DNA of 64,000 nucleotides. Source: Maribacter sp. Lineage in GTDB: Bacteria; Bacteroidota; Bacteroidia; Flavobacteriales; Flavobacteriaceae. Position 1 is the first letter of the stretch. Every line of letters starts with the position of its first letter. This document shows, piece by piece, positions 14,759-38,763 of the stretch. The notes under the pieces were generated by a model that was given only the letters and a program-made list of their open reading frames with translations, was not told the origin of the DNA and ran no database searches. The position numbers were made by a program, and so were the translations under genes. The stretch covers positions 1 to 64,000 of the forward strand of contig JAHDDL010000010.1 in assembly GCA_020629415.1 (NCBI GenBank), in the 5' to 3' direction.

Positions 14759-14829
14759 CAAATCTACATACCAAGTACTAAAATCAGGAAACCGACAAGA
14801 TGGCTGACAGTTTACTGTAGACGAATGGT
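14759..14829 (-). promoter_or_regulatory. LytTR-type tandem site plus -7 element, receiver-GT2 copy 1 promoter
   Basis: On the minus strand the first half-site CCATTCGTCTACAGTAA begins at 14828 and a degenerate second half (CAGCCAT) lies 21 bp on, ending at 14800. Exactly 62 bp from the first base is TAGATTTG (14766-14759), a consensus -7 element. Transcription would start near 14754, 30 bases before the ATG. Three other promoters in the window have the same layout and spacing. Confidence 0.75.
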
Positions 14830-14839
14830 TTATTACAAT

Positions 14840-14878
14840 AGACCACAATAAATTATGCTTTTTAAACAACAGACCACA
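14840..14878 (+). repeat. Pair of AGACCACA direct repeats
   Basis: AGACCACA occurs at 14840-14847 and 14871-14878, a spacing of 31 bp or about three helical turns. The pair lies between the LytTR-type site and the start of the membrane-protein operon at 15012, so it could be an operator for that operon. No regulator can be assigned. Confidence 0.35.
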
Positions 14879-15011
14879 CAACGGTATATCTTATAATAGC
14901 TATTGAAATTGTAGGTATTCTATTATTAAAATTTAAACTAATCCCTTTTAATTGTAATCATCATCTTATATATTTAATACCTTTATATTGAATTAGATTC
15001 TAATACAAGCA

Positions 15012-18000
15012 TTGAAAAAAAAAACCAACACTCTTTTAATACTGGCATTAATAGTAGGTCTGGCTTTTCATGGTTCAGCTATTTTCTTTACGTTAGAATC
15101 TACTTATGATGCCTTAATTCATTTATTCTTTGCCGACCATTATGCCAGTAGCTGGTTTGACCCCTGGGAGTATAGATGGTATACGGGTTTTACCGTACAG
15201 TCCTATCCGCCATTGGTACATCAGCTCATAGGCATTCTCTCATATATTGGCGGCTTAAAATTTGGCATGTATACCGTTGCCCTAATAGCCATAGTACTTT
15301 TTATAACCGGTGCATATAGGTATACCCTTTTAATGACCGGAAGCCGAAGAATAGCAGGCTATGGTGCCGTAATGGCCGTTTTCTCATCAACGTTCGTAGA
15401 GACCTTACATATTTTTGGGCAACTGCCAAGCGTTTCTGCATTGTCCATCTTATTACACGCAATGACAGAAATATACTTGTGGATCAAAACAGGTAAAACG
15501 CGTTATTTTATTACATCGGCAACCATGCTTGCGGTTACGGTAACCTCACATCATGTTACGCCCCTTTTCGGTATGGTATTCTTCATTGCACCTTTAATGG
15601 GCATGGCGGTTATGGATGCCGCCAGGGAAAAAGTAGCATCGTATAAAGCGCTTACCTTTAAAGTTTTCTGGGGTACCACATTACAGCATTTTTGGCGAAT
15701 TGCGAAATTTGGCGGAACGGCAATATTTTTGCTCGTATTCTGTATTTTTCCATATTGGTATAACTCTAAAAGAAACCCCATTACACAAGTTGCCATACCA
15801 CATGGGTCAAGAGACAATTTCTTGGAAATAACGTCATCAGGTCTTGTGTTCTTTCTGATTCCGTGGGGCGTATTCCTTTTTATACTACCCTATTTCTTTT
15901 ACAGATATTTTAGTAAAAGGTATGTTTTTTTCGGCTTATCGTTTACCCTATTGACCATACTGGGAACGGGAGGCACCACCCCCATACCACGTCTCATGTT
16001 GGGCGAAATGGCATTCAATATTTTAACTTTGGATAGGTTTACCTTATGGGCCACCATTATGGCGCTTCCCATATTTGCAGAATTTGCCTACCGGATGGTA
16101 GAAGGTGACCTAAAAACCTTGATACAGGAAAAATTCGGCGGGGTCTACCATAGAGTCTTGGGCGGACTGATTGCCGGAGGAATGCTTTTTATGGTATTGT
16201 TTACCATGACATTAGGCTATTTTAGACCCTCGCAGCCCGCTAAAATTAAAATGCTGCCCATAGTAAACTTTTTGGGTGCGGATTCACATGATTCATGGCG
16301 CTATCTACCGTTAGGTTTCGGTGATCAAATGGCATGGCTGTCCGCCCAGAGCGGAGCCATGACGGTAGATGGCAATTACCATTCTGCAAGGCGACTGCCA
16401 GAGTTGACTACCCGGGCCATTGAAAGAATAGAGAATTCTAAATTTAGGGGTGTAGAAGGTATTGGTTCTTTACAACAGTTTTTGACCGTACCTGAAAAAT
16501 ACAACTTAAAGTATATTTTCTCTAACGATAAATTTTATGACCCCATACTCTACTATTGTGGTTGGCAACGTTTACAGCAACTAGAAAACGGAATTATGGT
16601 ATGGGAAAAACTAAATGTTGCCCCAATACCACAAATAATGCCCAAGCAAGATGTACCCACTATCATGAAGATCATGTGGGGTGTTATACCGTTGACCACC
16701 GTGCTAATAGCCATATTCGTAAATATTCAAATGATATGGGTAAGACTTTTAAAATCTAGAAAAACGCCGGTACACTCTTTTATGAAATTAGAGTTGCCTT
16801 ACAACAAATTTCCTTCCAAGTTATTGACCTTTTCCCATTGGTGGGCATTGGTAGTGCTTATCTGCATAGGGTATGGCATGTATATTTTTTACGTAAAGAA
16901 CGTTGCACAATTATCTCCAAACAACGTAGTAGAATCGTATTATGATGCATTGGACTTTAAAGAGTTCTCCACTGCACACTCCTACTTAGATCCAGAAGAC
17001 AATATAGACATAGCGCAGTACATGCTAGAAGTTTCCGTTACAGATGGCATATTAAGCTCTTATGCAAAACTAGATTCTTTGGGCATAGAAATATATGATG
17101 AGACCGAAAATAGCGCAAAGGCAAAAGTTGCCACTAGATGGATCACGCCTTTAGAAAATGTTTTTAATAACGATTATCATGAATTGGTAAAACGTAAGAA
17201 CAAATGGTACATTAAATCTAAGAAGGTAGACAACGATATTCCGCCAGACCAGTTATTTACTGCCAACGGCACAACCTATTACAACCATGGTAGACGAAAA
17301 ATAACTACTCAAGAAACCTACCATGAAGATGTTCTAAAACAGCCGGTACTAGAAATTTTATCTGCAAAATTGGTTAAATACAAAGGGCAGTACAGTGTTA
17401 TAGGAGAGCTACAGAATGTAGACAATACACCTGCAGATGTGGTCATAAAGGCTACTTTGTACAATGACGATGACAAAGAGCTGGCAAATTACAATGCCAA
17501 ACATCAAATTAAACATAAGCTAATGCCCAAGGAAACTACGACCTTTAAAATAAATTTTGAAGGTATAGCGTGGTCGTCCACTAAAGATACCTTGCCCCCT
17601 ACTTTTGACCCGGACCAGTTTACACCTGTCAGTTTTGAAGAACAACCTACCAAGTTCAATTTACAATCTGCCGGAAATACCGCAAATACAGATTTGTATA
17701 AACACGTGGCATTACAAAATCTTAAATATACCGATCAAGGTTTTGAAGGCATTTTGTTCAATTCTGGCGTACAAGAAGTTACCATACCGCAATTGATCAT
17801 TTCTTATTATGATGAAAATAGTGAACTATTGTGGGTAGATCATAAATTTATTACGGAAGGTGTACGCATTCAACGCAAACAATTCTTTAATTACAAACCT
17901 TTGGCATTAGATAGTTTAGAGATTATAAGTAGCAGTTTAGAAAATTGTTTTGTAAACGGGTTGCCCAATAAAGCCATTGCGGATAAAATTTTTCCTGACA

Positions 18001-18101
18001 GAAAACTGATTCATGGCAAACAGCAGACCCAACCTTTTAAAGGCAAAGGCTATGACTATTTAAAATTTGAGATCAATAGTTATATAGGTAATCCAAAATA
18101 G
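15012..18101 (+). CDS. Polytopic membrane protein, PTPS_related / GT-C-like, with extracytoplasmic domains
   Basis: A 1029-residue protein. Residues 1-560 hold about 12 membrane spans and resemble the PTPS_related (6-pyruvoyl-tetrahydropterin synthase-related) membrane family, which has a GT-C-like layout. STYDALIHLFFADHY and TGFTVQSYPPLVHQLIG in the first outer loop are the conserved acidic and SYPPL segments. After a last span near residue 625 come an NTF2-like domain (NVVESYYDALDFKEFSTAHS, about 640-750) and two FxLYD-like beta domains (about 770-990). It is the best candidate in the locus for a lipid-linked sugar transferase or polymerase. The start is a TTG. It ends 1 bp before the next gene. 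Confidence 0.75.
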   Translation: MKKKTNTLLILALIVGLAFHGSAIFFTLESTYDALIHLFFADHYASSWFDPWEYRWYTGFTVQSYPPLVHQLIGILSYIGGLKFGMYTVALIAIVLFITGAYRYTLLMTGSRRIAGYGAVMAVFSSTFVETLHIFGQLPSVSALSILLHAMTEIYLWIKTGKTRYFITSATMLAVTVTSHHVTPLFGMVFFIAPLMGMAVMDAAREKVASYKALTFKVFWGTTLQHFWRIAKFGGTAIFLLVFCIFPYWYNSKRNPITQVAIPHGSRDNFLEITSSGLVFFLIPWGVFLFILPYFFYRYFSKRYVFFGLSFTLLTILGTGGTTPIPRLMLGEMAFNILTLDRFTLWATIMALPIFAEFAYRMVEGDLKTLIQEKFGGVYHRVLGGLIAGGMLFMVLFTMTLGYFRPSQPAKIKMLPIVNFLGADSHDSWRYLPLGFGDQMAWLSAQSGAMTVDGNYHSARRLPELTTRAIERIENSKFRGVEGIGSLQQFLTVPEKYNLKYIFSNDKFYDPILYYCGWQRLQQLENGIMVWEKLNVAPIPQIMPKQDVPTIMKIMWGVIPLTTVLIAIFVNIQMIWVRLLKSRKTPVHSFMKLELPYNKFPSKLLTFSHWWALVVLICIGYGMYIFYVKNVAQLSPNNVVESYYDALDFKEFSTAHSYLDPEDNIDIAQYMLEVSVTDGILSSYAKLDSLGIEIYDETENSAKAKVATRWITPLENVFNNDYHELVKRKNKWYIKSKKVDNDIPPDQLFTANGTTYYNHGRRKITTQETYHEDVLKQPVLEILSAKLVKYKGQYSVIGELQNVDNTPADVVIKATLYNDDDKELANYNAKHQIKHKLMPKETTTFKINFEGIAWSSTKDTLPPTFDPDQFTPVSFEEQPTKFNLQSAGNTANTDLYKHVALQNLKYTDQGFEGILFNSGVQEVTIPQLIISYYDENSELLWVDHKFITEGVRIQRKQFFNYKPLALDSLEIISSSLENCFVNGLPNKAIADKIFPDRKLIHGKQQTQPFKGKGYDYLKFEINSYIGNPK

Positions 18102-18102
18102 T

Positions 18103-20878: not shown

Positions 20879-20884
20879 TGGTAT

Positions 20885-20911
20885 AAAAAAAGGCTGGTTA
20901 CCACACCAGCC
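20885..20911 (-). terminator. Rho-independent terminator after GT4 copy 1
   Basis: On the minus strand GGCTGGT pairs with ACCAGCC over a 6-base loop and is followed by seven T residues. It ends the transcript that carries receiver-GT2 copy 2, flippase copy 1 and GT4 copy 1, and lies just past the end of the convergent hydrolase gene. Confidence 0.9.
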
Positions 20912-24937: not shown

Positions 24938-26167
24938 TCATGCCATTAATTCTTTTTCTACCAAAGAAACGTCTAACGTAAATCCTTTAGATTTTGCCAA
25001 TTGTAATGTTTTAAAATATTCAATGTACATTCCTGTAATAGTTGACATAGGTATTGAACAAGCCGCCCTATAATTTGCCTTAGACAAATACTTTCTGTAA
25101 GAGTCATGTGCTAATATATGCTCAATGGCTTCTGCCAAGGAGGCTGCGTTTTCAGGCTTAAAGAATTCACCCTTATAACCTTCTTCTTTTACCAATATAC
25201 TTAAGTCCCCCAAGTTAGGTAATGCTACTGCCTTACCGTAACTACCTGCCTGATGCAATACACCAGAACTACCTGTAGTAGAAGTATACGGAAAAACCAC
25301 TACGGCACTTTCATTAAAAATGACCGGCACATCTTCTTCTGCTACATAACCTGTAAAACGTAGCTGTTCTACATGTGCATACTTCTTCTTTATACCGTCT
25401 AAATAACCTGGTGTATTAGGGCTATCGGTACCTGCAATTACAATTTCAATATCTTGGTTGCTACGTTTTCTGATCAACTCTACTGCTTCTATCATAATCT
25501 CTACCTTTTTATAGGTACCAAATTTGCCAAAAGCCATTACTTTTTTTGGTCCAGATGGTAATTTATAGTTTGGCTCTGGTGGAGTTTCAAAAGATCCGTG
25601 CGGAATTAAGGCTACATTTCTTGACTGATATTTATCTTCTAAAATAGTTTGATATTTACTTATAGTCACCGCTACAATATCTGAAGCCAATACAAATCTT
25701 GTAAGCACGTTACCGGCAAAATTATACATCTTCTTTAAAAATGTGTTAGAGGTAATACCGGCATTTTCTAAATCTACTTGTTCCAGTATATTGTGCAACA
25801 AAGAAATGGTAGGTATACCTTTTAATTTTGATATAAAGGGTAACATTAAGCCAAGTGCCGCAGGTATCTTTTTGTGCCCGAACTTTAAAAATTGCAAATT
25901 GTATAATACGGCATCGGGCTTTGCCGAGGCTATGGCTCTATTAATTTTAAAGAAGTTGGTGTAACCATTAAAATTCCAACATTCTTTTACCGTAATCTTA
26001 CAACCTCCGCCCTCAAAGTTTAAATCTTTTGGACCATCAGTTCTATCGGTTATTAAAATAATTTCCGTTATATCTTTTTGAAGTCTAAAATGTTTTACCA
26101 AGTGATAACCGTATTCGGTCAATGTTACTTTACTTGGCGGATAAGCGGTTACAATGGCAAGTTTCAT
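24938..26167 (-). CDS. Family 4 glycosyltransferase (copy 2)
   Basis: A 409-residue GT-B glycosyltransferase collinear with the GT4 at 20936-22165, sharing the MKLAIVTAYPPSKVTLTEYG start, KKVMAFGKFGTYKKVEIMIE and FPYTSTTGSSGVLHQAGSYG. The ATG at 26167 is chosen over an in-frame TTG at 26188 because it matches the paralogue's first residue. It has its own promoter with a LytTR-type site (26206-26275), and a hairpin separates it from the flippase gene upstream, so it is probably transcribed alone. Sugar donor and acceptor are unknown. Confidence 0.88.
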   Translation of the reverse strand: MKLAIVTAYPPSKVTLTEYGYHLVKHFRLQKDITEIILITDRTDGPKDLNFEGGGCKITVKECWNFNGYTNFFKINRAIASAKPDAVLYNLQFLKFGHKKIPAALGLMLPFISKLKGIPTISLLHNILEQVDLENAGITSNTFLKKMYNFAGNVLTRFVLASDIVAVTISKYQTILEDKYQSRNVALIPHGSFETPPEPNYKLPSGPKKVMAFGKFGTYKKVEIMIEAVELIRKRSNQDIEIVIAGTDSPNTPGYLDGIKKKYAHVEQLRFTGYVAEEDVPVIFNESAVVVFPYTSTTGSSGVLHQAGSYGKAVALPNLGDLSILVKEEGYKGEFFKPENAASLAEAIEHILAHDSYRKYLSKANYRAACSIPMSTITGMYIEYFKTLQLAKSKGFTLDVSLVEKELMA

Positions 26168-26205
26168 AAGGTTAAGTTTATAGTTCAACTGGGTTATTGT
26201 TGTTA

Positions 26206-26275
26206 CAAATATCCAACTAAGAGAAAGAAATTTAGGGCCATATTAGGTGGATCAAGAGTTACTGTAGACGAATGG
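26206..26275 (-). promoter_or_regulatory. LytTR-type tandem site plus -7 element, GT4 copy 2 promoter
   Basis: On the minus strand CCATTCGTCTACAGTAA starts at 26275, with a degenerate second half GATCCAC 21 bp on, ending at 26247. GATATTTG (26213-26206) begins exactly 62 bp from the first base and is one base off TAnnTTTG. Predicted start near 26201, 34 bases before the ATG. The first 17 bp are identical to the site at 14812-14828. Confidence 0.75.
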
Positions 26276-26284
26276 AAGAAATGC

Positions 26285-26296
26285 TTGGTTAAACCT
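26285..26296. repeat. TTGGTTAAACCT repeat, copy B
   Basis: Second copy of the 12-mer at 24765-24776, here 10 bp outside the LytTR-type site of the GT4 copy 2 promoter. The position suggests a second binding factor or an old shared leader carried along with the gene duplication. Confidence 0.35.
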
Positions 26297-26432: not shown

Positions 26433-27680
26433 TCAAACTATCTTGTTAAGAATGGTATTATGCGTAAAATAAAGTAGCTGGGCAACCAATAAAGAAACCA
26501 TGGCTATAATCTGTACCTGTACCACAATGTATAATGAGCTATGAAAAAACATGATCATAATTATTTGCGAGATACCCAAAATACCAGATAGAATGACCGG
26601 TAGGTATTGATCAAGAGATAAAAAGTAATAGGCAAATATATTTGATATAGCGAACAGCGATGTAGCCAAGGCATATTGCCATAACAATGGCGCCATGGAG
26701 AGATATGCTTCCCCGAACATTAATTGCACAATCAACTCAGGAAAAACAGCACAACATATGATAATCGTTACAGATAAGACACCTACATAACCAACGTATT
26801 TCATTAATAATGGTGCTGTAGCCTCGCCATCTTTCTGCTTTTGTACCACGGCAGGCAATAAAAGCATGACAAACATCCAAGCTATAAAATAAACTACACG
26901 CCCTATCATGGCCAGAGAAGAATAGAGACCGGCGGTAACATTATCAAAATAGTGTTTTACCAAAAGAATGTCACTATTATTAATAATTATTTGGGTAAGC
27001 TCATAGCAAGTGGTCAGTGCTACAAAACTGATTACCTTACGTTTATTCTCTTTGGATAAAGTTACTTTTTTGATAAAACTCTTTATATCTAATGTGGTAG
27101 GAATTAAGCCGAATACAAATGATAGACCAATACCTAAAGCTACAATAAAAGCTGAATTGAAAGGTAACAGCACTAACAAGCCCAAGGTGATGAACAATCT
27201 ACTCCACATTTCTGCTTGATATGTCATGGATAATTTTTGATATTCCTGTTTGCCTTGATACCTTCCTCTATTAACGGACATTAAAAAATATAAGGGAACG
27301 GAAACAGCAAAGGTTTTGAACAGTAAGTCAGATTCAGTATGGAATATTTCCTGCAAATTTTTTGAAAACGCAAAAAGTATTATGCTTATTAATAAACCAA
27401 AAATTAGAGCATATTTATATAATAGGTGCTTAAGTGCCACACGATCATCATTAGAAAATAAAATAACAAACTTTGCGGTAACCAATTGAAAGGTCATACC
27501 CAAAAAGGAGAGTACCAATACCAATGTGATCAATAAAGCGGCTTCACTATACGCTTCTGGACCAAGTAATCTACCCAATATTAGGTTGTAAAGATAATTT
27601 CCTCCGTTTACTACCAGTACACTCACCATAAATACCTTTTCAGGGGAAACTTTATTCAGTACCAGTTTAATTGCCATCAT
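26433..27680 (-). CDS. Wzx/PelG-type polysaccharide flippase (copy 2)
   Basis: A 415-residue MOP-superfamily membrane protein, paralogous to 22235-23491, with the same NGGNYLYNLILGRLLGPEA start, the SVNRGRYQG loop and the ELTQIIINNSDILLVKHYFD segment shared almost word for word. About 12-14 spans are expected. Two consecutive ATG codons start the frame. It is preceded by a LytTR-type promoter (27724-27794) and is divergent from the TPR/beta-barrel exporter gene. It probably moves an EPS intermediate or chain across the inner membrane. Confidence 0.87.
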   Translation of the reverse strand: MMAIKLVLNKVSPEKVFMVSVLVVNGGNYLYNLILGRLLGPEAYSEAALLITLVLVLSFLGMTFQLVTAKFVILFSNDDRVALKHLLYKYALIFGLLISIILFAFSKNLQEIFHTESDLLFKTFAVSVPLYFLMSVNRGRYQGKQEYQKLSMTYQAEMWSRLFITLGLLVLLPFNSAFIVALGIGLSFVFGLIPTTLDIKSFIKKVTLSKENKRKVISFVALTTCYELTQIIINNSDILLVKHYFDNVTAGLYSSLAMIGRVVYFIAWMFVMLLLPAVVQKQKDGEATAPLLMKYVGYVGVLSVTIIICCAVFPELIVQLMFGEAYLSMAPLLWQYALATSLFAISNIFAYYFLSLDQYLPVILSGILGISQIIMIMFFHSSLYIVVQVQIIAMVSLLVAQLLYFTHNTILNKIV

Positions 27681-27723: not shown

Positions 27724-27794
27724 CAAATATCATAAAGGCTGTTATCATTTTTTAAGTGCATAAGGTAGATAACCGTTAGCTGTAGACGAACGGT
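27724..27794 (-). promoter_or_regulatory. LytTR-type tandem site plus -7 element, flippase copy 2 promoter
   Basis: On the minus strand CCGTTCGTCTACAGCTAAC starts at 27793, with second half TATCTAC 21 bp on. GATATTTG (27731-27724) begins exactly 62 bp from the first base. The site is also an inverted repeat (ACCGTT, 11 bp, AACGGT, 27772-27794), so on the + strand a half-site faces the exporter gene at 27905. A further ACCGTTAGG, which fits the published LytTR half-site pattern, lies at 27871 just before that gene. Confidence 0.75.
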
Positions 27795-27904
27795 AATTAT
27801 CCTACTTCCAAAACGGTAAAGGCAATTTTATCTTTACAATATTGATTATGACAAATAAATCGCAATAATTACCGTTAGGTATTTGTAGTATAAATCTCAC
27901 ATTA

Positions 27905-29965
27905 ATGATTAAAAAAATAGTTTTCCTTATTCTTTTAACTTCTTCACTGTTAAAAGCCCAATCTGATATGACCGAAGGTTTTGGTTTATTGGAGAAAGGT
28001 GACTTTCAAAAAGCTGAACTTTTTTTTGGTGAATACCTTAAGACAGACCCGGACAACAAAACAGCATTGCTCTGTTATGGCCGGGCAGTAGGGTTAAGCG
28101 GAGAGCCCCAAAAAGCAACCGGTCTTTTCTCCGACCTTTTAAAAGATTACCCTGGCGATTTTGAGATTTTGATCAACTATAACGAATCTTTTTTATGGGC
28201 CAAAGAATATGAACAAGCTAAACCCCTATATGCGGATCTAGTTGATAAATTTCCCAAGAAATTTGGGGCCGTACTCGGTTACGCCAATACCTTAAGTAAC
28301 TTAAAAGAATATGAATCTGCCTTAAGCTGGGTTGAAAAAGCTATAGAATTACAGCCAGAAAATGAAAGTGCAAAGGTCTCTAAAAAATTTATGAGACTTG
28401 GTTATGCCAATGCCTTTGTAAATAATCAACAATACGGTAAAGGAGAAGAAACCCTAAAAAAAATATTTGAAGATTTTCCTGAAGACAAAGATGTACTCAT
28501 TAATCTTGCCAACCTTTATTTAATTACAAAGCAAGCGGACAAGGCTAAGAATATGTATGTCAGGTATGCTACTACCCCTAAAGATTCCATTACCGCTTTA
28601 AACGGTATAGCGTTGGCAGAGCATTTAGATGAAAATGATAAAGAAGCCTTGATTGTTGCTAAGAACGCAACGGTAAAAGTAGATAAGATAGATGACGTAC
28701 CACTTACTGAAAATACCTATGATCGTTATGTGCAAGCTTTGATCTGGAACAAAAAATTCATACCTGCCCGTAAAAAAATAGATAGTTTAGAAGTTCATTA
28801 CCCAAATAGAAATTGGATACATGCCCTTAGAGCTACCTTAGGTCTGTACACTGGCGACTCAAAAGCAAGTGTTGTAAGTTATGATAGAATCTTAGTTAAC
28901 GATAGTGCATCTTTTGATGGAAATCTGGGAAAAGCCAATGCCTTATTTGCATCTGATAAAATAATACCGGCATATCATATGGCAAATCAGACCTTAAAAT
29001 TCTACGATAATCAAAAAGATGCCAAAGGTTTTATTGAGAAGTTGAACTTAATGCACACACCAACGATCGAAGAACATGCCGCTTATACTTTTGATAATGG
29101 TAACAATACGGCCTTTTATACCAATACCACGGTAGACATACCTTTTTCAACAAAGTTTAGGACTACTTTCTCCTATTTCTTTAGATCTACGGAAAATACG
29201 GTTACGGATAATAAGGCAACTTCTCATGTAGCTTTAGTAGGGCTACAATACAAGTTATTTCCAAAAACGGTTCTTAAAACGGTTTTAGGATTCAACAATT
29301 CTAGATTTTTGGATGAGGCATATACTCAGCCGGTGCTTGATATTAAATTGGATTTACAACCATTTAAGCTTCAGAACTTAACATTGGGGTACCAGAGGGA
29401 AGTACAAAGCTTTAACGCAGAATTGATTGAACGAGAGATTGTACAGAACCACTATGGCTTAAATTATAACTTGGGAACCAATGTAAATTTTGGCTGGTAT
29501 ACGCAACTGATGCATACTCGGCAGAGTGATGAAAATGTAAGAAATTTACTGTTCACGTCTCTTTATTATAACGTGCTTAAAAAACCTGCTTTGAAAATGG
29601 GTGTCAATTATCAGTACATTACGTTTAAGGACCAAGTACCAACTATATATTTTAGTCCTGAGAAGTACCAAGCAGTTGAACTATTTGCAGATGTTCGCGG
29701 TAAAATTTCCGAAAAAACCACATATATGGCCAGTGCAGCTACGGGTATTCAAAAAGTAGAAGATGATCCTAATACCAACATCTTTAGAGCCGAAGCTTCT
29801 GTACAACATCAATTCTCAAAAAGATTTAGTTTAAACGTTTATGGTAAGTATAGTAATATTGCCTCAGCCACCGCAGCGGGGTTTGAATTTACCGAAATAG
29901 GATTAAAAGCAAAATGGTTGTTTTTGAAAAAACCTTTATTCTACAAAAAGTTAGATCTAGACTAA
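27905..29965 (+). CDS. TPR plus outer-membrane beta-barrel exporter (PgaA/BcsC/PelB-type)
   Basis: A 686-residue protein with a signal peptide (MIKKIVFLILLTSSLLKAQ). About nine tetratricopeptide repeats span residues 22-385, for example LEKGDFQKAELFFGEYLKTD and YESALSWVEKAIELQPENES. Residues 395-686 are alternating hydrophobic strands typical of a 16-strand barrel, ending EIGLKAKWLFLKK. The same architecture exports polysaccharide across the outer membrane in PgaA, BcsC, AlgK/AlgE and PelB systems. It is divergent from flippase copy 2 and shares its regulatory region. Export of the EPS made by the neighbouring genes is the inferred role. Confidence 0.82.
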   Translation: MIKKIVFLILLTSSLLKAQSDMTEGFGLLEKGDFQKAELFFGEYLKTDPDNKTALLCYGRAVGLSGEPQKATGLFSDLLKDYPGDFEILINYNESFLWAKEYEQAKPLYADLVDKFPKKFGAVLGYANTLSNLKEYESALSWVEKAIELQPENESAKVSKKFMRLGYANAFVNNQQYGKGEETLKKIFEDFPEDKDVLINLANLYLITKQADKAKNMYVRYATTPKDSITALNGIALAEHLDENDKEALIVAKNATVKVDKIDDVPLTENTYDRYVQALIWNKKFIPARKKIDSLEVHYPNRNWIHALRATLGLYTGDSKASVVSYDRILVNDSASFDGNLGKANALFASDKIIPAYHMANQTLKFYDNQKDAKGFIEKLNLMHTPTIEEHAAYTFDNGNNTAFYTNTTVDIPFSTKFRTTFSYFFRSTENTVTDNKATSHVALVGLQYKLFPKTVLKTVLGFNNSRFLDEAYTQPVLDIKLDLQPFKLQNLTLGYQREVQSFNAELIEREIVQNHYGLNYNLGTNVNFGWYTQLMHTRQSDENVRNLLFTSLYYNVLKKPALKMGVNYQYITFKDQVPTIYFSPEKYQAVELFADVRGKISEKTTYMASAATGIQKVEDDPNTNIFRAEASVQHQFSKRFSLNVYGKYSNIASATAAGFEFTEIGLKAKWLFLKKPLFYKKLDLD

Positions 29966-32429: not shown

Positions 32430-32449
32430 AATTTTACTGTTGTAAAATT
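32430..32449. terminator. Short AT-rich hairpin between convergent genes
   Basis: AATTTTAC pairs with GTAAAATT over a TGTT loop between the receiver gene (+) and the LytTR gene (-). It is self-complementary in both directions and has no long T-tract, so it could only be a weak bidirectional terminator. Confidence 0.4.
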
Positions 32450-33156
32450 TAGAGTAAATTCAATCTTCGCATTAATTCTGGACGGTTAGATCGGCTTATG
32501 GGAACTACATTTTTGGCAATTAGTACACTATTATCTTCAATATCAATAATTTTAGTAAAATTGATGATGTAAGACCGGTGTATTTGTAGAAATAATTTCT
32601 CAGGTAATTTCTCCTTAATTTTCTTAAGTGTAGTATGCACCCTATGCTCCTCTTTTTCCGTTTTTATCTCTATATAATCACCCTTGGCCTCAATGACTAA
32701 AATGTCATTAAGTTTCAGTTTGATCAATCTTCTATCAATATTGATATATAAATCTTCTTCTTGTGCGTTTTCTTGGTTAGCTGTTGGTATTTGTGGTCTT
32801 TTAGCAGAGCTATTTTTTATTTTGAGCAAACACTTTTGAAAACGTTCCAGAGTTATGGGTTTTACCAGATAATCTACAATACACTCATATTCGTAAGCCG
32901 CAATTGCAAAATCTGTATCTGATGTAGTCATAACCACTTTAGGGGGATCTTTAAGGGTCTGTACAAAATCTACACCGCTAAAGCCTGGCATATGAACATC
33001 TAAAAAAATGACATCTATACTATTTTGATTTAAAAATTTAATGGCGGAAATAGCATTATCAAATTCTTCAATGACATCTAGCTCGGCAACTTTGGTACAT
33101 AGCTGCTTTACGATTGCTCTTGCCATAGCCTCATCATCAATTATAATACAGTTCAT
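32449..33156 (-). CDS. LytTR family response regulator
   Basis: A 235-residue transcription factor. Residues 1-120 are a receiver (CIIIDDEAMAR, phosphoacceptor in VIFLDVHMPGFSG, VMTTSD, VKPITLE). Residues 135-235 are a LytTR DNA-binding domain (INIDRRLIKLKLNDILVIEA, FLQIHRSYIINFTKI). LytTR proteins bind two direct 9-bp repeats about 21 bp apart. This is the last gene of the H-NOX/FIST operon, directly after the Hpt gene with no gap. The four LytTR-type tandem sites in the window are its likely targets, including the promoter of its own operon. Confidence 0.92.
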   Translation of the reverse strand: MNCIIIDDEAMARAIVKQLCTKVAELDVIEEFDNAISAIKFLNQNSIDVIFLDVHMPGFSGVDFVQTLKDPPKVVMTTSDTDFAIAAYEYECIVDYLVKPITLERFQKCLLKIKNSSAKRPQIPTANQENAQEEDLYINIDRRLIKLKLNDILVIEAKGDYIEIKTEKEEHRVHTTLKKIKEKLPEKLFLQIHRSYIINFTKIIDIEDNSVLIAKNVVPISRSNRPELMRRLNLL

Positions 33157-33477
33157 TTAAATCGTTTTTATGTATTCTTCAATAGTGGCTAGAACATTAT
33201 CGAATTTGGTTTTACTCTCATATTTACCTTCCAATAATTCCATTTCATAGGTAACTGCCAATTTATAAGAGTCATGCATGCCTAAAATATTAAATTTATG
33301 TTTTAGTTTATGAACAATCTCGGCAGTTTCTTTAAACCTGCTGTTGTCTATATGACCAAAATATTCGTCTTTTTCTAAAGGAAATTCACTTTTGACAACA
33401 TCTATGAATTGACCTCTAAAGCCCTCATCATCACCAGCAAGCTCATCTATATAACTAAGGTTCGGTTGCTCTATCAT
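33157..33477 (-). CDS. Hpt (histidine phosphotransfer) protein
   Basis: A 106-residue all-helical protein with the Hpt signature AEIVHKLKHKFNILGM near residues 52-67, where the first His is the expected phosphoryl carrier. It has no other domain. It overlaps the upstream kinase gene by 4 bp (ATGA) and abuts the LytTR gene. In a relay an Hpt receives phosphate from a receiver and passes it on. Here the single-domain receiver at 38272 and the LytTR receiver are the obvious donor and acceptor, but the order cannot be read from sequence. Confidence 0.87.
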   Translation of the reverse strand: MIEQPNLSYIDELAGDDEGFRGQFIDVVKSEFPLEKDEYFGHIDNSRFKETAEIVHKLKHKFNILGMHDSYKLAVTYEMELLEGKYESKTKFDNVLATIEEYIKTI

Positions 33478-34538
33478 TTATTCTTTTTTAAAGTTATAAA
33501 AAATGTAGTACCTACATTTTCTTCAGACTTCAACCGCACATCACCTTCATAAAGTACCGCAATTTTTTTAACAATTGCAAGACCTATACCTGTGGCGTTA
33601 TTGGCTGTTTCCAATTTTTTGAACATTTGAAATATACCTTCTTGGTGCTTGGCCGGTATTCCTTTTCCATTATCGGAAACACTGAATTTCCAATACACCT
33701 CATCTGGTTCGTACCCAATTTCTATAATTCCGTTTTCTACATGTTCCGTTGCCGTAACCGCATTTGTCAACAAATTCATGAATAATTGCTCTAGTCTAGA
33801 CCTCTCGAACACCATGTGTGGCAATTCTTTAGGATACTTAAAGGTAATGTTCTCAGGTACAAAAATTGTTCTTTCAATATCCCTTAAACTGTCCTCTAAA
33901 TTGAAGGAAGATTTATGTTCTTCTGTCTCACCCATTGTGGCATGGTTTAGAATACCGGTAATGAGTTTGTCCATTTTTGTTAGGTTCTGCGACACCAATT
34001 CGCAATTTTCTTTGCTGGTCTCAGAAAATTTATCTTTCTCATCTTCCATAATCCAGTTCATCAAAGCATTGATGTTTCTTATGGGCGATTTTAAATCATG
34101 CGAAACCATCTGCGCATAATTATTTAAAGATTGGTTCTGAATTTCCAAACTTTTAAGCAATTTGTCTTTCTCTACGGACATATCTGAAACCTGAGATGCC
34201 AAATTACTAATGTTAATGGCCAAGTGCTCTGCGTTGAATTCATCCTCTATATTCTGACCGAACAATTGATCTTCATTAAGATTATCCGTTAAGCTACGAA
34301 TGGCATTCTCTAATGAAACAAGAATCTTTTTTTGTTGTTTTGCTTCTTTCTGTAATTTCTTATTCGCCTCAAAAAGCTCATCTGAACTAATTGTAGAAGC
34401 TCTATGCAGCATAGAGAATTTATCATCGTAATTCTCGTATGATTTTTCTATTGCTTCTAAGAATTGTGCCATCTCTGGATTAGATTCTATATCCGCAGGT
34501 AAATATTTTCTTATTTGTCTTTTTAAAAGAGAATGCAT
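33474..34538 (-). CDS. Soluble histidine kinase downstream of FIST (NahK-type position)
   Basis: A 354-residue cytoplasmic kinase. The N-terminal part is a helical coiled coil (LLKRQIRKYLPADIESNPEM, then about residues 48-140), with no membrane span and no PAS domain. HisKA has MVSHDLKSPIRNI (H near residue 146), and HATPase_c has MNLLTNAVTATE, DNGKGIP and TGIGLAIVKK. It overlaps the FIST gene by 1 bp and the Hpt gene by 4 bp. The arrangement FIST-kinase-Hpt recalls the NosP-NahK-HptB pathway, so regulation by the FIST protein is likely but inferred. Confidence 0.88.
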   Translation of the reverse strand: MHSLLKRQIRKYLPADIESNPEMAQFLEAIEKSYENYDDKFSMLHRASTISSDELFEANKKLQKEAKQQKKILVSLENAIRSLTDNLNEDQLFGQNIEDEFNAEHLAINISNLASQVSDMSVEKDKLLKSLEIQNQSLNNYAQMVSHDLKSPIRNINALMNWIMEDEKDKFSETSKENCELVSQNLTKMDKLITGILNHATMGETEEHKSSFNLEDSLRDIERTIFVPENITFKYPKELPHMVFERSRLEQLFMNLLTNAVTATEHVENGIIEIGYEPDEVYWKFSVSDNGKGIPAKHQEGIFQMFKKLETANNATGIGLAIVKKIAVLYEGDVRLKSEENVGTTFFITLKKNK

Positions 34539-35668
34539 TATTCGCTAAATAAGGTTAGTGTCATAGTCTGGTTATGCAATTTACAACTATCCTGACCACT
34601 GAACGGAGCCATTTCACCATATGAGTAAAACCCGCTTATAACGGTATTATTGCCAATTACTGCCTTTACCTCCTCAATTTCTTCCTCGGTACGCTGATCC
34701 ATGACCAACTTTCTACCTATACAACTGATCAACAATGCCAATTCTGGAGACTTCTTTCTACCTTCCATAGCCAACTCTGCCGCTTGTGAGGCACCGTTAG
34801 CTATATCATCTACGGAAGACATCATTAACTGTACCCTTGCCCCTTCCGGAACATCGCCCGCAAGTAACATGGTATTTTCCTTTTCATCTATATTGAGTAT
34901 AGTTCTAACCAATGGATCTGAATCTTCTGTCGCTTTTACGCTAAGCGGGTAAAGCAATGCAGACTTTGGCAATTCATCTGCTTTTTCGCCTAAATACGTT
35001 TTGTACAAATCTAAAGCAGGTTTACCATCTAGTTCATAAAGCAAATTACCTTTAGATTTGGTTATAATACGTTCAGGACCAAAAGTGGTCCATCCGCCAA
35101 AATTAGAACTTGTTATTTCTAGGGTATCACCGTAGAAACCAATAGCGATAATCTCCCCTTCCTTTGGCTTTTCATTATACGAAGCCAATGTTTTTTCAAA
35201 CCGATCATCATCTCCACAGAGTCCGCCGGACAGTCCGAAGGTTGTTTCTTTTAAATTCTCTAGTCCTACTATTAGAGCACTGCCGTTTACGGTACTACCT
35301 TCAGATATTACGAATAAATGTTTTAAATTCTCTTTGGGAAATTCAGCTATTAAACTTTCTCCCAATTTTTGATCATCATTTTGAAAATTATGTACATTGC
35401 TCCGTTTTACCAAAACTGAACTTTTCTCAAATTCTATAGCGGTCAAAACAACGGTGCCTTCCAAAACTTTATCATCAATAATCTCTCCTGAAGTTGTGCC
35501 AAAAACAATATGCCCATTAGGAAACAACGCCCTAACCTCATCATAGATCAAATCACTATCAAGCATATATCTATTGCCAAAAACCAGTACCAAGGGTTCA
35601 TTTAAATGCATGGAACTTTGTAGTACAAAAGGGGCATTTGGTTTCTTAATTGCTTGTACGATTTTCAT
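34538..35668 (-). CDS. FIST domain protein (NosP-type candidate)
   Basis: A 376-residue protein with FIST_N (about 25-200; LVLVFGNRYMLDSDLIYDEV, FGTTSGEIID, SGGLCGDDDRFE) and FIST_C (about 225-360; LYELDGKPALDLYKTYLGE, SRIGRKLV-like SCIGRKLVMDQRTEEE). FIST proteins are sensory partners of kinases. NosP members bind heme and nitric oxide. Which histidine, if any, would bind heme here cannot be settled by eye. It lies in the same operon as an H-NOX protein, 11 bp after the PAS kinase gene, and is coupled to the kinase gene behind it. Confidence 0.88.
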   Translation of the reverse strand: MKIVQAIKKPNAPFVLQSSMHLNEPLVLVFGNRYMLDSDLIYDEVRALFPNGHIVFGTTSGEIIDDKVLEGTVVLTAIEFEKSSVLVKRSNVHNFQNDDQKLGESLIAEFPKENLKHLFVISEGSTVNGSALIVGLENLKETTFGLSGGLCGDDDRFEKTLASYNEKPKEGEIIAIGFYGDTLEITSSNFGGWTTFGPERIITKSKGNLLYELDGKPALDLYKTYLGEKADELPKSALLYPLSVKATEDSDPLVRTILNIDEKENTMLLAGDVPEGARVQLMMSSVDDIANGASQAAELAMEGRKKSPELALLISCIGRKLVMDQRTEEEIEEVKAVIGNNTVISGFYSYGEMAPFSGQDSCKLHNQTMTLTLFSE

Positions 35669-35679
35669 ATTAATTTGTA

Positions 35680-37656
35680 TTAGTTATGGTCTTTTTTTAT
35701 AGTGAAATGAAACTGGGTACCTTCGCCTACAATGCTATCTACCCAAACTCTACCCTGGTAACGATCAATAATCTTCTTTACTATTGAAAGACCAATACCT
35801 GTAGATCTTTCATTATTACCGATAGATTGAAAAATATCAAAAATCTTTTTATGGTACTCTTCTGGTATACCTACGCCATTGTCACTGATCGTAAACTGCC
35901 AAAAATCGCCATCATCCTTGTACAGGACCTCTACAAGACCTACTTCCCTTTCTATATGAACAACGGCATTACCTATAATATTTTGAAAAACCTGGTGTAC
36001 CTTAATTCTATCTGCCATGATGGTGGGCAGCTCTTTTGGTATTACCAATTTTACATGTTCAGGTATAAAAATAGTTTCGCCAATATCTGTAATAACTTCA
36101 TTAAGGTCTACTTTAGAATCATCTAAGGCAGAACTATTGGCGGTAGAATATTCAAGAATACCATGTATCAATTTATCCATGGAAGCCACCTTTTCTTGCA
36201 TAAGGGCAAGATTCTGTTTACCTCCTTCATCTAAAACATCTTTATAATCATCGCTTAACCAAGTGGCCAAAGCACTAATACTTCTAAGTGGCGATTTAAG
36301 GTCATGAGATACAATATGTGCGTACTCTTGTAAACCTTGGTTACTGTTCTCTAAATCTTTAACCAGCTGTTCTTTCTGTAATTCTAATTCTTTTTGCTTT
36401 GTTACATCTAAATGAACACCTACCGAGCCTACTACATCACCAGCTTCATTATATCTTGGTGCTCCACTTATTAACCAATGCTTTTTCTCGCCAAACTTGT
36501 TCAGTATTTCAACCTCAAAAGAATTAGACTCACCACCAGATTCTAATTTTAATTTTGACGTTAATACATTCTTGTTTTCTACATGAAAGAAATCTGTAGC
36601 ATTTTTTCCTATAAGCTCATTCTCGGAAAAACCGCTCATATCACAAAAACTTTGATTAGCTAAAAGGATAGTATCTTTTTCATCTAATTCTAACAGGCCT
36701 AGGTTCATATTGGCGATGATATTACTATACTTTTCCCTTTCCGCTTTTAATTTAGTTTCAGCTTCATGCTGTTTGGTAATATCCTCTAACATACCTAAAA
36801 CAAAGCGTGTTTCGTTACGTATGTTCTTAACGGCATTAAGAGATATTTTTAGATATAAGATCTCTCCGCTCTTATGTATATATTTTTTTGATATTGTAAA
36901 ATCATCAATTTCACCATCATACATTTGTTGCATTAACAATTTGCTCTTCTCTTCATCATCAGAGGCGGTAATATCCGCTATACTCATATTTTGGAACTCT
37001 TGAGAACTATAGCCTAGCAAATTGGTCATTGCGTGGTTTACTTTTAAGATTTTATCCGTGTTGGCCAATACAATACCTAGCGGTGATGCATTTACGATAA
37101 TATCCAATTGTCGCTTTTGTTCAGATAACATTTCCGTTACCTCCATCTCTTGGGTAATATCACGTACTATACCTTGGGCCGCTATTGGTTGTTTTTCTTT
37201 ATTGAATATTAAACTGGCATTAATTTCTACCCATTTTTCAACATCATCTTTAACAAGGATTTTGGCCCGGTAGTTTTTAAGCATACCAACCTCTTTTAAA
37301 CTACTGAAAGATTCTATGGTGTACTCCATATAATCTTTGTGTACCAATTTCCAAAGATTGATATCTTGTTCCTTATGATCATAACCTAAAAAATCTTTAG
37401 CAGATTGGTTCATGCTTACCACATTATAGGATAAGTCCATGACCACATAAGGATCTATAATATTGATGAAAACGCCATCTAGTTCGGATGTTTTTTCGCT
37501 TAAAAGATTTTCAAGTTTGTTATTAGACTCCCTTAAATGGCGTGCAACCTCGTAAAGCTCATTAGATTTTTCTTCTAATATTCTTTCGGCTTGTTTGCGG
37601 GCCATTTTTTGCCTTTCCAAGGCTTTTTTAAGAAGGGTAACCTCTTTACTATCCAT
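35680..37656 (-). CDS. PAS-sensor histidine kinase coupled to H-NOX
   Basis: A 658-residue cytoplasmic kinase. An N-terminal coiled coil (about 1-60) is followed by three PAS domains (about 60-180, 185-305, 310-430), the second and third with clear PAC endings (VLGMLEDITKQHE, VGSVGVHLDVTKQKE). HisKA has HIVSHDLKSPLRSI and HATPase_c has QNIIGNAVVH, DNGVGIP and STGIGLSIVKK. The ATG at 37656 overlaps the H-NOX gene by 8 bp. A further start at 37671 would overlap more. H-NOX proteins normally inhibit or activate such partner kinases. An internal GAF or globin domain is not seen. Confidence 0.9.
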   Translation of the reverse strand: MDSKEVTLLKKALERQKMARKQAERILEEKSNELYEVARHLRESNNKLENLLSEKTSELDGVFINIIDPYVVMDLSYNVVSMNQSAKDFLGYDHKEQDINLWKLVHKDYMEYTIESFSSLKEVGMLKNYRAKILVKDDVEKWVEINASLIFNKEKQPIAAQGIVRDITQEMEVTEMLSEQKRQLDIIVNASPLGIVLANTDKILKVNHAMTNLLGYSSQEFQNMSIADITASDDEEKSKLLMQQMYDGEIDDFTISKKYIHKSGEILYLKISLNAVKNIRNETRFVLGMLEDITKQHEAETKLKAEREKYSNIIANMNLGLLELDEKDTILLANQSFCDMSGFSENELIGKNATDFFHVENKNVLTSKLKLESGGESNSFEVEILNKFGEKKHWLISGAPRYNEAGDVVGSVGVHLDVTKQKELELQKEQLVKDLENSNQGLQEYAHIVSHDLKSPLRSISALATWLSDDYKDVLDEGGKQNLALMQEKVASMDKLIHGILEYSTANSSALDDSKVDLNEVITDIGETIFIPEHVKLVIPKELPTIMADRIKVHQVFQNIIGNAVVHIEREVGLVEVLYKDDGDFWQFTISDNGVGIPEEYHKKIFDIFQSIGNNERSTGIGLSIVKKIIDRYQGRVWVDSIVGEGTQFHFTIKKDHN

Positions 37657-38191
37657 GTTGTACAACATCAAATTTTACTTCAGTACCATCTTCCTTAAGA
37701 AGTTCGTAAGTAATATCGGCCTTGCCATTAAAGTGTTCAAAAGATTTTTCTATTAAACCATGTGCCAATCTATATAGCCCTCTTGAAGAACTATAGATCA
37801 TGGAAATGGAAGTATCAGTTTTCTCAAGAATCTTAAATGTAGGCAATTCTGCTTCTGGATATAGTTTTTTTACATGCACATGAATATGGTCTTCAATTGA
37901 ATAAAGCAAACCGATAGGAGAACGGTAACTTTGAATAACTTCTGGATGCGCATTTTTAAGACTAGAAAACAAATAGAGTCCAAATGCGTAAATTAGATCT
38001 CCGGCAGGTAAATCTACCTCTTCACTCAATTGGGTAATCAATGCCACCATTTCATTGAATTCGTAGGTGGCAACAGATGTATATATGCCCTGGGAAGGCA
38101 AATCTGTTTTTTCAATAATATTATCAACAGTCTCTAAACCGAATTCCGATTCGACCATTTCTAAAAACTCGGTAAATACAATTCCCTTCAT
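37649..38191 (-). CDS. H-NOX heme nitric-oxide/oxygen-binding sensor
   Basis: A 180-residue stand-alone H-NOX protein. It starts MKGIVFTEFLEMVESEFG, as is usual. The heme propionate-binding motif YxSxR is present as Y133-S-S135-S-R137. The proximal histidine lies in EDHIHVHVKKLYP, most likely H104. The Tyr that gives O2 binding in some H-NOX proteins is not evident, which favours nitric-oxide selectivity, as in other facultative bacteria. It overlaps the PAS kinase gene by 8 bp and follows the receiver gene by 80 bp, so it is in the same operon. Confidence 0.93.
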   Translation of the reverse strand: MKGIVFTEFLEMVESEFGLETVDNIIEKTDLPSQGIYTSVATYEFNEMVALITQLSEEVDLPAGDLIYAFGLYLFSSLKNAHPEVIQSYRSPIGLLYSIEDHIHVHVKKLYPEAELPTFKILEKTDTSISMIYSSSRGLYRLAHGLIEKSFEHFNGKADITYELLKEDGTEVKFDVVQHG

Positions 38192-38271
38192 TTGAATTTT
38201 TTTACAATATATTCAAACGTAGGAAAATTAATACGTAATTGTATAAAAATGTTGTGAAATGAGCTTTTTTG

Positions 38272-38673
38272 TTAGCCTTTTACTAGTTGGTTAATGCTCC
38301 AATACTGTAAAACTGCATTTAACTTATACTCATAATCTTCATATTTCAAAGGTTTAATTACATAACCTGCAATACCGGCCTGGTAACATTTTAACAAATC
38401 TGCCCTATTCTCAGAGGTCGTTAAAATAACAGTAGGTAAATATTGAAGTACGTCATCTGCCTTTAATATTTCTAAAAATTCTATACCGTTCATTCTAGGC
38501 ATGTTCAAGTCTAACAGAATAATATCCGGTAATTTCTCACCTGATCTTAAAAAGTCCAATGCCTCTTCACCGTTCTTTGCTTCTATGATTGAATGTTTTA
38601 GCTCAAGTTTAGAAACTGTTCGTTTCAACTTCATTACTTCAATTAAATCGTCTTCTATTAATAATATATCCAT
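38272..38673 (-). CDS. Single-domain response regulator (first gene of H-NOX operon)
   Basis: A 133-residue CheY-like receiver with no output domain: acidic cluster LIEDD, phosphoacceptor in ILLDLNMPRMNG, switch residue in VILTTSEN and lysine in VIKPLK. The type resembles Rcp1-like receivers found next to kinases. It is the first gene of the seven-gene operon and has the LytTR-type promoter. It could take phosphate from either kinase and hand it to the Hpt protein. It could also be a phosphate sink. The sequence does not decide between these. Confidence 0.9.
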   Translation of the reverse strand: MDILLIEDDLIEVMKLKRTVSKLELKHSIIEAKNGEEALDFLRSGEKLPDIILLDLNMPRMNGIEFLEILKADDVLQYLPTVILTTSENRADLLKCYQAGIAGYVIKPLKYEDYEYKLNAVLQYWSINQLVKG

Positions 38674-38692
38674 TGCATAAATATTTGAGTGT

Positions 38693-38763
38693 CAAAAGTC
38701 TTACAATCACTCGATATAATTTGACTTGTGTGGGCGAATGGTCATTTACTGTCGGTGAATGGT
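38693..38763 (-). promoter_or_regulatory. LytTR-type tandem site plus -7 element, H-NOX operon promoter
   Basis: On the minus strand ACCATTCAC and ACCATTCGC lie exactly 21 bp apart (from 38763), with spacer CGACAGTAAATG. This is the clearest tandem pair of the four. GACTTTTG (38700-38693) begins exactly 62 bp from the first CC. Predicted start near 38688, 15 bases before the ATG at 38673. The arrangement implies autoregulation by the operon's own LytTR protein. Confidence 0.78.

Follow-up and report, generated by a model that had tools for sequence, protein, structure and literature searches.

The signals of the Firmicutes regulators AgrA, FsrA, VirR and PlnC are mostly peptides. LytTR sites have been described as direct repeats that come in pairs with a gap of about 12 bp; for these regulators the repeats are imperfect and their spacing is crucial (PMC4064291, in the portion of the paper available). 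In the proteobacteria that have been reviewed, nitric oxide (NO) controls biofilms largely via c-di-GMP or quorum sensing (PMC8738867, likewise in its available portion). Here we describe a promoter module in a 64,000-nucleotide stretch of Maribacter DNA (the window) that resembles the Firmicutes sites in the spacing of its repeats, but has three repeats where those have two and is accompanied by predicted gas sensors. Among the matches listed from the open PubMed Central subset, in several cases judged by the title and the start of the abstract, none appears to describe this regulon.

The genes for the predicted NO sensors form an operon on the minus strand. It begins with a stand-alone receiver protein (38272..38673; Pfam Response_reg, 4.8e-21), followed by an H-NOX haem NO-binding protein (HNOB; 37649..38191), a PAS-containing histidine kinase (35680..37671), a FIST plus FIST_C protein (34538..35668), a second histidine kinase with a HATPase_c match and a HisKA match below the cut-off (33474..34538), a 106-aa Hpt-like phosphotransfer protein (33157..33477) and the proposed regulator, a receiver-LytTR response regulator (32449..33156). 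The receiver and LytTR domains of the latter match Pfam with 65 and 70 bits, and its phosphorylation residues D7, D8, D53 and K99 are invariant among 13 orthologues. The FIST N and C domains score 142 and 126 bits, and the protein is a predicted relative of NosP that is not filed as NosP because its NCBIfam score of 56.3 bits falls below the equivalog cut-off of 450.

Hpt proteins carry their phospho-accepting histidine in an H-x-x-K helix. Across 12 sequences of the Hpt-like family, H56 is invariant and K59 nearly so. Weak Hpt matches occur in eight of nine family members, the best reaching 23.5 bits where the gathering cut-off of PF01627 is 24.6; the window copy has none, and two members match another model better. 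A DNA-binding role for the 106-aa protein was set aside, given the weak Hpt matches in its family. A search for solved structures gave nothing useful for either the FIST or the Hpt-like protein.

The H-NOX protein matches HNOB with 132 bits (cut-off 25.5; E 2.2e-38), and its closest solved relatives are 6bde and 6bdd (6.1e-58 to 6bdd), the latter used as the Kordia algicida (Ka) H-NOX in PMC7356049. Among 91 loci, 50 hold the full operon set, 31 lack NosP and the second kinase, and 10 hold less (47, 31 and 10 of 88 loci when identical regulators are removed). The regulon could be real and nonetheless answer to a signal other than NO, if the H-NOX and FIST proteins sense redox state, O2 or another ligand, or if the kinases respond mainly to PAS inputs. 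Weighing against this are the strong similarity to HNOB and 6bdd, the YxSxR motif of H-NOX, which is intact here, and the joint presence of both NO-sensor families in 50 of the 91 loci. Given that the FIST protein lies so far under the NosP cut-off, that 41 loci are divided between the two less complete operon forms, and that oxidative activation of an H-NOX has been reported (PMC12329717, in its available portion), we regard a different signal as unlikely but still credible.

A GGDEF match at E 1e-10 was found in only 1 of 149 genomes and, because of this, the usual route from NO to c-di-GMP is apparently missing in the Flavobacteriaceae examined.

The initial annotation had reported four minus-strand copies of the 14-mer CCRTTCRYCKACAG, and these are indeed present without mismatch, their first bases at 14828, 26275, 27793 and 38762. 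As it had also proposed, [TG]AnnTTTG begins exactly 62 bp from the first C at all four sites (TAGATTTG, GATATTTG, GATATTTG and GACTTTTG, respectively). In the half-site frame taken from a matrix of related loci, module 1 (14759..14849) comprises a weak half-site at 14849-14841, a strong one at 14828-14820 (extended to 14815) and a partial one at 14807-14799, with the −7 box TAGATTTG at 14766-14759 ahead of the ATG at 14724 of a receiver-GT2 glycosyltransferase (13558..14724, minus strand). Module 2 (26206..26296) has weak, strong and medium or partial half-sites at 26296-26288, 26275-26267 and 26254-26246 and the −7 box GATATTTG at 26213-26206; it precedes a GT4-type glycosyltransferase (24938..26188, minus strand) whose likely ATG is at 26167, the listed ORF start being a TTG at 26188. 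In module 3 (27724..27814), a weak half-site (27814-27806) is followed by CCGTTCGTC (27793-27785), a partial half-site (27772-27764) and the −7 box GATATTTG (27731-27724), upstream of the ATG at 27680 of a polysaccharide flippase (Polysacc_synt_3; 26433..27680, minus strand). Module 4 (38693..38783), which may be autoregulatory, carries TTGTTCAGC at 38783-38775, a strong half-site at 38762-38754, a near-perfect one at 38741-38733 and the −7 box GACTTTTG at 38700-38693, before the receiver-gene ATG at 38673. All four modules lie on the minus strand, and sites 1 and 3 have poor upstream half-sites.

The second half-site that had been claimed 21 bp from the first is near perfect at site 4, at a place one base away from that first given, and is partial at sites 1 to 3. 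The downstream genes had been named correctly as receiver-GT2, GT4, flippase and the receiver/H-NOX operon, whereas the name ‘flippase copy 1’ could not be confirmed for 22235-23491, which has no Pfam match. Taken alone, the 14-mer at up to two mismatches has six matches in the window, where 1.68 are expected on average and six were reached by 1 of 100 shuffles; one of the two extra matches (38741-38728) coincides with the second half-site of array 4. To train a matrix, 134 sites that have a −7-like box at 62 were drawn from 72 loci, omitting the window, the G075 loci and Maribacter-titled loci, although the pattern used to collect these sites derives from the window. The four places in the window that this matrix ranks first are exactly these sites (67.8, 61.7, 50.2 and 41.1 bits), the next one scoring −12.0; the highest value reached across 30 simulated windows of 64 kb was −4.8. 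Directly upstream of the other gene copies (GT4 20936, 22235, receiver-GT2 23528), nothing exceeds −41 bits.

The exact 14-mer occurs five times in the 3.9-Mb assembly, always on this contig (reversed control, 0). The composite of motif, 48 N and −7 box occurs four times without mismatch, with two further copies at one mismatch and one each at two and three, whereas the reversed composite gives four matches at up to three mismatches and none at up to two. The motif is therefore not equally common before unrelated genes, being found only five times in exact form and preceding orthologous targets in relatives, namely flippase, GT4 and receiver-GT2 genes as well as the receiver/H-NOX operon. Against a pure exopolysaccharide (EPS) regulon, three of the genome's seven modules stand before other genes (a DoxX-like gene, a secreted-like ORF of 86 aa and an ORF of 42 aa), and of the 282 motif matches in related loci, 72 are followed by an ORF of another kind, by an unlabelled ORF or by none.

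The EPS locus also encodes, on the plus strand, a 1029-aa protein without a Pfam match that served as locus marker (15012..18101) and a TPR outer-membrane export-porin-like protein with weak BCSC_C/PgaA similarity (27905..29965). Identification of the polymer as PNAG is unsupported, with PgaA and PgaC at 58 of 367 and 56 of 422 bits at curated cut-offs. The same is true of Pel, an analogy only, since PelF and PelG models are absent among the matches listed.

Across Flavobacteriaceae, the element is a promoter module of three LytTR-type half-sites (weak-strong-medium) with a 21-bp period plus a sigma-A-like −7 box. An unconditioned scan with the 14-mer (up to one mismatch; 121 loci, 2.4 Mb) gave 282 matches made non-redundant by their 100-bp context, of which 271 lie outside ORFs of at least 100 aa. 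An exact [TG]AnnTTTG stands at offset 62 in 130 of the 282, and in 192 if one mismatch is allowed; smaller peaks, each displaced by one 21-bp repeat, stand at 41 and 83, and at no offset farther than 1 from these three does the count exceed 13. The matrix places the half-sites at labels −20..−12, 1-9 and 22-30 and the −7 box at 63-70, while identity between loci is 0.31 in the spacer and 0.33-0.34 in the flanks. Wherever two motifs lie within 120 bp of each other (32 pairs), the step between them is exactly 21 bp, in keeping with the direct repeats of 8-13-bp half-sites, separated by roughly 12 bp, that characterize LytTR promoters. The half-site CCGTTCGTC, present at 27793 and at C55:84850, equals the AlgR core. 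Of the 32 double arrays, 30 are found in the 400 bp that precede the receiver gene. The −7 box is less exact before this gene: of 87 receiver-gene promoters, only 26 have a perfect box at 61-63 or shifted by one repeat, and 67 have one at 61-63 if one mismatch is allowed. In loci collected by LytTR similarity, with Maribacter-titled loci removed, the motif occurs in 55 of 60 (128 matches, 127 of them on the LytTR strand), compared with 0-6 loci for 12 shuffled patterns.

TTTG is rare in the −33 region (8 of 130 sites), as would be expected for an activator-dependent promoter. Repression by LytTR, which NO would then relieve or strengthen, has a precedent in the repressor CoxC, a gas-responsive LytTR protein whose operator likewise has three repeats (PMC11347149, in its available portion). 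However, the CoxC operator overlaps the −35 box, whereas the nearest half-site here ends upstream of the −33 region; on this geometry, and with so few TTTG elements, repression seems rather unlikely.

With an orthologue threshold of at least 225 bits, a composite match was found in 54 of 61 LytTR-positive versus 14 of 88 negative genomes (P=1.3e-19), the 149 genomes including related and hence non-independent samples. At least two sites occur in 40 of 61 versus 2 of 88, and the reversed composite shows no such difference (12 of 61 versus 10 of 88, P=0.17). Indeed, in genomes without the LytTR gene the motif does not persist above background (14 versus 10 of 88 for the reversed control). The EPS marker is present in 38 of 149 genomes, 37 of which have the LytTR orthologue; association with the EPS locus only was rejected, as genomes without the marker still give 19 of 24 versus 13 of 87. 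Within one genus (121 genomes), matches at up to one mismatch occur in 6 of 25 positives versus 1 of 96 negatives (P=0.0003; control, 1 of 25 versus 14 of 96), and at two mismatches 14 of the 25 positives have no composite match and 10 of the 96 negatives have one.

Seven of the 61 positive genomes lack a composite match at two mismatches; for five of these, the matrix reaches 23, 31, 46, 47 and 6 bits within the 20-kb surroundings of the regulator gene, at loci from the training pool rather than held out. One clear exception among those looked at is G106, a draft assembly in which EPS genes and a strong site lie on a 5.5-kb contig and the LytTR orthologue was not found. H-NOX was rejected as the tracked gene, in that three loci (G011, G115 and G047) keep LytTR and modules with no H-NOX-labelled ORF nearby. 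In the only two loci covered from relatives outside the family (G150 and G172; LytTR 47 and 42% identity), no module scored more than 5 bits in the surrounding 20 kb, and neither H-NOX nor Hpt was labelled there.

The module might be a genuine LytTR-type operator and yet serve a different one among the 13 LytTR proteins that the Maribacter genome encodes, leaving the regulator of the NO operon as neighbour and target, and specificity among paralogues is unreadable from sequence. Of the other 12, the one that scores best by BLAST was profiled, and it does not track the motif: it is present in 112 of 149 genomes, and the motif occurs in 11 of the 57 having that paralogue alone. The composite (up to two mismatches) is absent within 48 kb of the other 12 genes on their own contigs, and 30 of 32 double arrays precede the proposed regulator's own operon, which together make binding by another paralogue quite improbable. 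A 3-kb check around each LytTR gene has little weight, because the proposed regulator's own gene likewise has no module there, its operon promoter being 5.5 kb away. The assignment of the protein at 32449-33156 as regulator of the EPS genes and of its own operon, already made in the initial annotation, is thus supported by co-occurrence, strand and array position.

A common AT-rich promoter pattern, arising by accident or through recent duplication of an EPS module, could be imagined from the duplicated GT4 and receiver-GT2 genes, but is extremely improbable in view of the 53-bit matrix gap, the dissimilar spacers, the remaining gene copies without a module and the 55 of 60 non-Maribacter loci set against 0-6 for shuffled patterns; the earlier view that one spacing in four promoters is hard to obtain by chance is borne out by the held-out matrix, shuffled patterns and reversed controls.

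We therefore favor, as the probable reading, an autoregulated phosphorelay in which NO sensors act through LytTR on EPS transcription via this operator-promoter module, which would define a single regulon conserved across Flavobacteriaceae. The LytTR regulator would bind three head-to-tail 9-bp half-sites (core CCRTTCRYC) with a 21-bp period on one helix face, centered near −91, −70 and −49 if the −7 box is taken as −12 to −5. It would activate, rather than repress, a promoter that has a −7 box and no conserved −33 box, with flippase, GT4 and receiver-GT2 as EPS targets and with its own operon, which has the best arrays, as a further target under positive feedback. H-NOX and the NosP-like FIST protein would sense NO and set the activity of both kinases, from which phosphate may reach the LytTR regulator by way of the stand-alone receiver and the Hpt-like protein; this relay order, the NO signal and the sign of its effect are parts of the proposal. 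The third half-site, the Hpt-like protein, the family-wide conservation and the near absence of GGDEF go beyond the initial annotation.

More broadly, we lean somewhat toward the view that Flavobacteriaceae run a c-di-GMP-free circuit from NO to matrix, with two haem NO sensors, two kinases, a receiver, an Hpt-like protein, one LytTR, a three-repeat operator and positive autoregulation, acting on whichever EPS locus the genus acquired. The findings suggest a possible link of slime (EPS) production to NO without the c-di-GMP messenger, in genomes nearly devoid of GGDEF of which many nonetheless retain H-NOX and NosP-like genes. The operator predicts regulon members family-wide, and more than 100 natural sites are at hand for dissecting LytTR activators that work from fixed, phased positions.

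To our knowledge, the AlgR system (AlgZ/FimS-AlgR) of Pseudomonas aeruginosa has no H-NOX/NosP operon. Like the system described here, it combines a LytTR response regulator with the 9-bp core CCGTTCGTC, identical in both, and governs an exopolysaccharide, in its case alginate; each promoter requires more than one site. However, AlgR sites need not be direct repeats separated by 12 bp and some are far from the promoter (PMC4064291, available portion), whereas here, in another phylum, three phased repeats keep a constant distance to a −7 box of the Bacteroidota type. RcoM and CoxC, too, are linked to a diatomic gas and use a LytTR domain on a set of three direct repeats spaced by about two turns of the helix (PMC11347149, available portion). 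They are one-component proteins with built-in CO sensors and control CO oxidation, whereas the regulator described here is a response regulator that would receive its signal from kinases, an Hpt-like protein and haem sensors encoded separately, and its proposed targets are EPS genes. In the H-NOX/HnoK phosphorelay of Shewanella and Vibrio and in NosP pathways, sensors likewise act on histidine kinases in a phosphorelay with biofilm output and transcriptional feedback by HnoC, yet, as far as the available part of the review goes, the main targets of these pathways are quorum sensing or c-di-GMP enzymes (PMC8738867), whereas in the Maribacter operon LytTR is the only output domain and GGDEF is nearly absent.

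As the initial annotation proposed, four minus-strand promoters carry a common LytTR-like tandem site with a −7 element at a distance of 62 bp. The agreement with the sequence is base for base. The 14-mer CCRTTCRYCKACAG occurs on the minus strand at 14828, 26275, 27793, and 38762, and [TG]AnnTTTG is present exactly 62 bp after each of these copies. The 3.9-Mb assembly contains five exact copies of the 14-mer, every one on the window's contig. A search of the assembly with the composite pattern (the 14-mer, 48 unspecified nucleotides, and the −7 box) located three modules beyond the window, at C55:84850 and C59:56142 (1 mismatch) and at C31:90479 (2 mismatches). A held-out matrix, for which 134 training sites were drawn from 72 loci by means of a pattern derived from the window, and which excluded the window itself, the loci of another Maribacter genome (G075), and all Maribacter-titled loci, assigns 41 to 68 bits to the four window sites and 37 to 45 bits to the three distant modules. 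The next-best window position scores −12, and the top score among 30 simulated windows is −5.

The module at C55:84850 (plus strand; position 1850 of fetched locus L015), which comes after an ABC-F-like gene in the window's genome, is kept in G075 (C14:88526; L193:8526, plus strand). In these two Maribacter genomes it lies 5′ of a small secreted-like ORF of 86 and 85 amino acids, respectively, with a common C-terminal EVARLHK-KN-R stretch, and this ORF is a candidate new member of the regulon. The C59:56142 module (L016:10142, plus strand) precedes the gene for a 135-aa DoxX-like protein, and within the module's spacer there is an inverted repeat (CACCTATGAAA...TTTCATAGGTG) that overlaps the second half-site. 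The C31:90479 module (L017:9479, plus strand) carries an additional half-site 21 bp upstream and is followed only by a 42-aa ORF, possibly representing a small protein or an RNA.

Scanning 121 loci (2.4 Mb, a few of them overlapping) for the 14-mer alone, with at most one mismatch and no −7 box requirement, gave 282 matches that are non-redundant by context, 271 of which fall outside ORFs of at least 100 aa. The sequence [TG]AnnTTTG is found at offset 62 in 130 of these matches. Offsets 61, 63, 41, and 83 give minor peaks, the last two lying one 21-bp step from 62. With one mismatch allowed in the −7 box, offset 62 is occupied in 192 of 282 matches and any offset beyond the peaks in at most 13. 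In the matrix, half-sites occupy labels −20 to −12, 1 to 9, and 22 to 30, and the −7 box occupies 63 to 70; likeness of the spacers between loci is no greater than that of the flanks. A −33 TTTG is not conserved, as labels 36 to 46 contain one in 8 of 130 sites. If the −7 box is taken as −12 to −5, following PMC9723704, the half-site centers are near −91, −70, and −49. Pairs of matches no more than 120 bp apart are spaced by exactly 21 bp in 32 of 32 cases, and 30 of these double arrays reside 5′ of the receiver gene in the receiver/H-NOX (NO) operon. The −7 box is less exact 5′ of this gene: among 87 such promoters, an exact box at 61 to 63 or one repeat away is present in 26, and a box at 61 to 63 with a mismatch allowed in 67. 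One locus (L187, from genome G071) holds three near-identical modules at 9442, 9680, and 9918, which repeat in direct orientation every 238 bp; the intervening stretches contain no ORF of at least 80 aa.

In related genera, the module is found 5′ of the orthologues of flippase, GT4, and receiver-GT2, as well as 5′ of the receiver/H-NOX operon. The gene that follows the match is, among the 282 matches, the receiver gene in 117 cases, GT4 in 45, flippase in 33, and receiver-GT2 in 15; for the other 72, it is another or unlabelled gene, or there is no ORF within 400 bp. No module lies upstream of the window's other GT4 and receiver-GT2 copies. In genera that lack the window's EPS locus, modules occur 5′ of other genes, as at a locus of genome G109 that encodes a Wzy_C protein and one GT2. 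At 13558–14724 and 23528–24667, the window encodes GT2 glycosyltransferases that carry a fused receiver domain, and orthologues are present in many fetched loci. Because of this fusion, the polysaccharide enzyme itself may be under phosphorelay control.

The proposed regulator is the LytTR protein encoded at 32449–33156 (minus strand), which is 99% identical in M. huludaoensis, making Maribacter the most likely genus of the window's genome. Its strongest test comes from loci fetched by LytTR similarity. Among the 60 of these that are not Maribacter-titled, 55 contain the motif, and 127 of 128 matches are on the LytTR strand; 12 column-shuffled control patterns match 0 to 6 of the 60 loci. The predicted co-occurrence of motif and LytTR orthologue also holds across 149 family genomes, where the composite is found in 54 of 61 genomes with the orthologue versus 14 of 88 without (P = 1.3e-19), and the reversed pattern in 12 of 61 versus 10 of 88 (P = 0.17). 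Among genomes without the EPS marker, a 1029-aa EPS-locus protein, the composite is present in 19 of 24 with the orthologue versus 13 of 87 without. Within one genus, probably Flavobacterium (121 genomes), the counts are 11 of 25 versus 10 of 96 at two mismatches and 6 of 25 versus 1 of 96 at one, with 1 of 25 versus 14 of 96 for the reversed control.

Some cases weigh against assigning the motif to this regulator. The composite is absent from seven of the 61 LytTR-positive genomes; five of these were re-scored with the matrix, to whose training pool their loci belonged, and gave 23 to 47 bits in four cases and 6 bits in one. Furthermore, EPS genes and a module are present in genome G106, on a contig of 5.5 kb, but a LytTR orthologue was not found there. 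Another LytTR protein is a less probable regulator. No composite with up to two mismatches lies within 48 kb of the window genome's 12 other LytTR genes on their contigs; a 3-kb check around each LytTR gene is uninformative because even the module preceding the operon of the proposed regulator lies outside that distance. The one paralogue profiled across genomes, the best-scoring LytTR paralogue here, is present in 112 of the 149 and does not track the motif. Tandem duplicated LytTR genes occur at L181 (genome G131, 8298–10241) and L184 (G024, 6139–7693), and the second G024 copy has diverged (46%).

The operon that includes the LytTR gene also encodes a receiver, an H-NOX protein, a PAS kinase, a FIST/FIST_C protein, a second kinase, and a 106-aa protein. 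The H-NOX is similar to 6bde and to 6bdd, the latter being the Kordia algicida protein as implied by PMC7356049, and the FIST protein matches NosP far under the equivalog cut-off. The 106-aa family conserves a V-H-K-x-[KR]-H-K stretch with an invariant His56; the Pfam Hpt model matches eight of nine members weakly, none reaching the curated cut-off, and another model is better for two of the eight. The complete gene set is present at 50 of the 91 LytTR loci that include 8 kb of upstream sequence; the NosP-like protein and second kinase are missing from 31, and 10 have less. At L065 (G011:C20, 8457–10405), the operon is reduced to a receiver gene and the LytTR gene, flanked by modules at either end. 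No ORF labelled as H-NOX, kinase, or Hpt lies close by, and the EPS marker of this genome is on another contig. A c-di-GMP output is unlikely here, because GGDEF at E 1e-10 is found in 1 of 149 family genomes versus 8 of 14 control genomes.

Beyond the observed module, with its period, spacing, strand, conservation, and co-occurrence, a phosphorelay under the NO sensors would feed the LytTR regulator, which would bind the half-site array and activate from upstream of a promoter lacking a −33 element. We consider it quite probable that this represents an autoregulated LytTR regulon through which an NO-sensor phosphorelay reaches exopolysaccharide transcription. The parts are of known kinds, and no description of their combination is apparent in the portions of the open literature searched. 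The half-site is identical to the core recognized for AlgR, which likewise controls an exopolysaccharide according to PMC4064291, and LytTR operators with three repeats are known from RcoM and CoxC, as described in PMC11347149.
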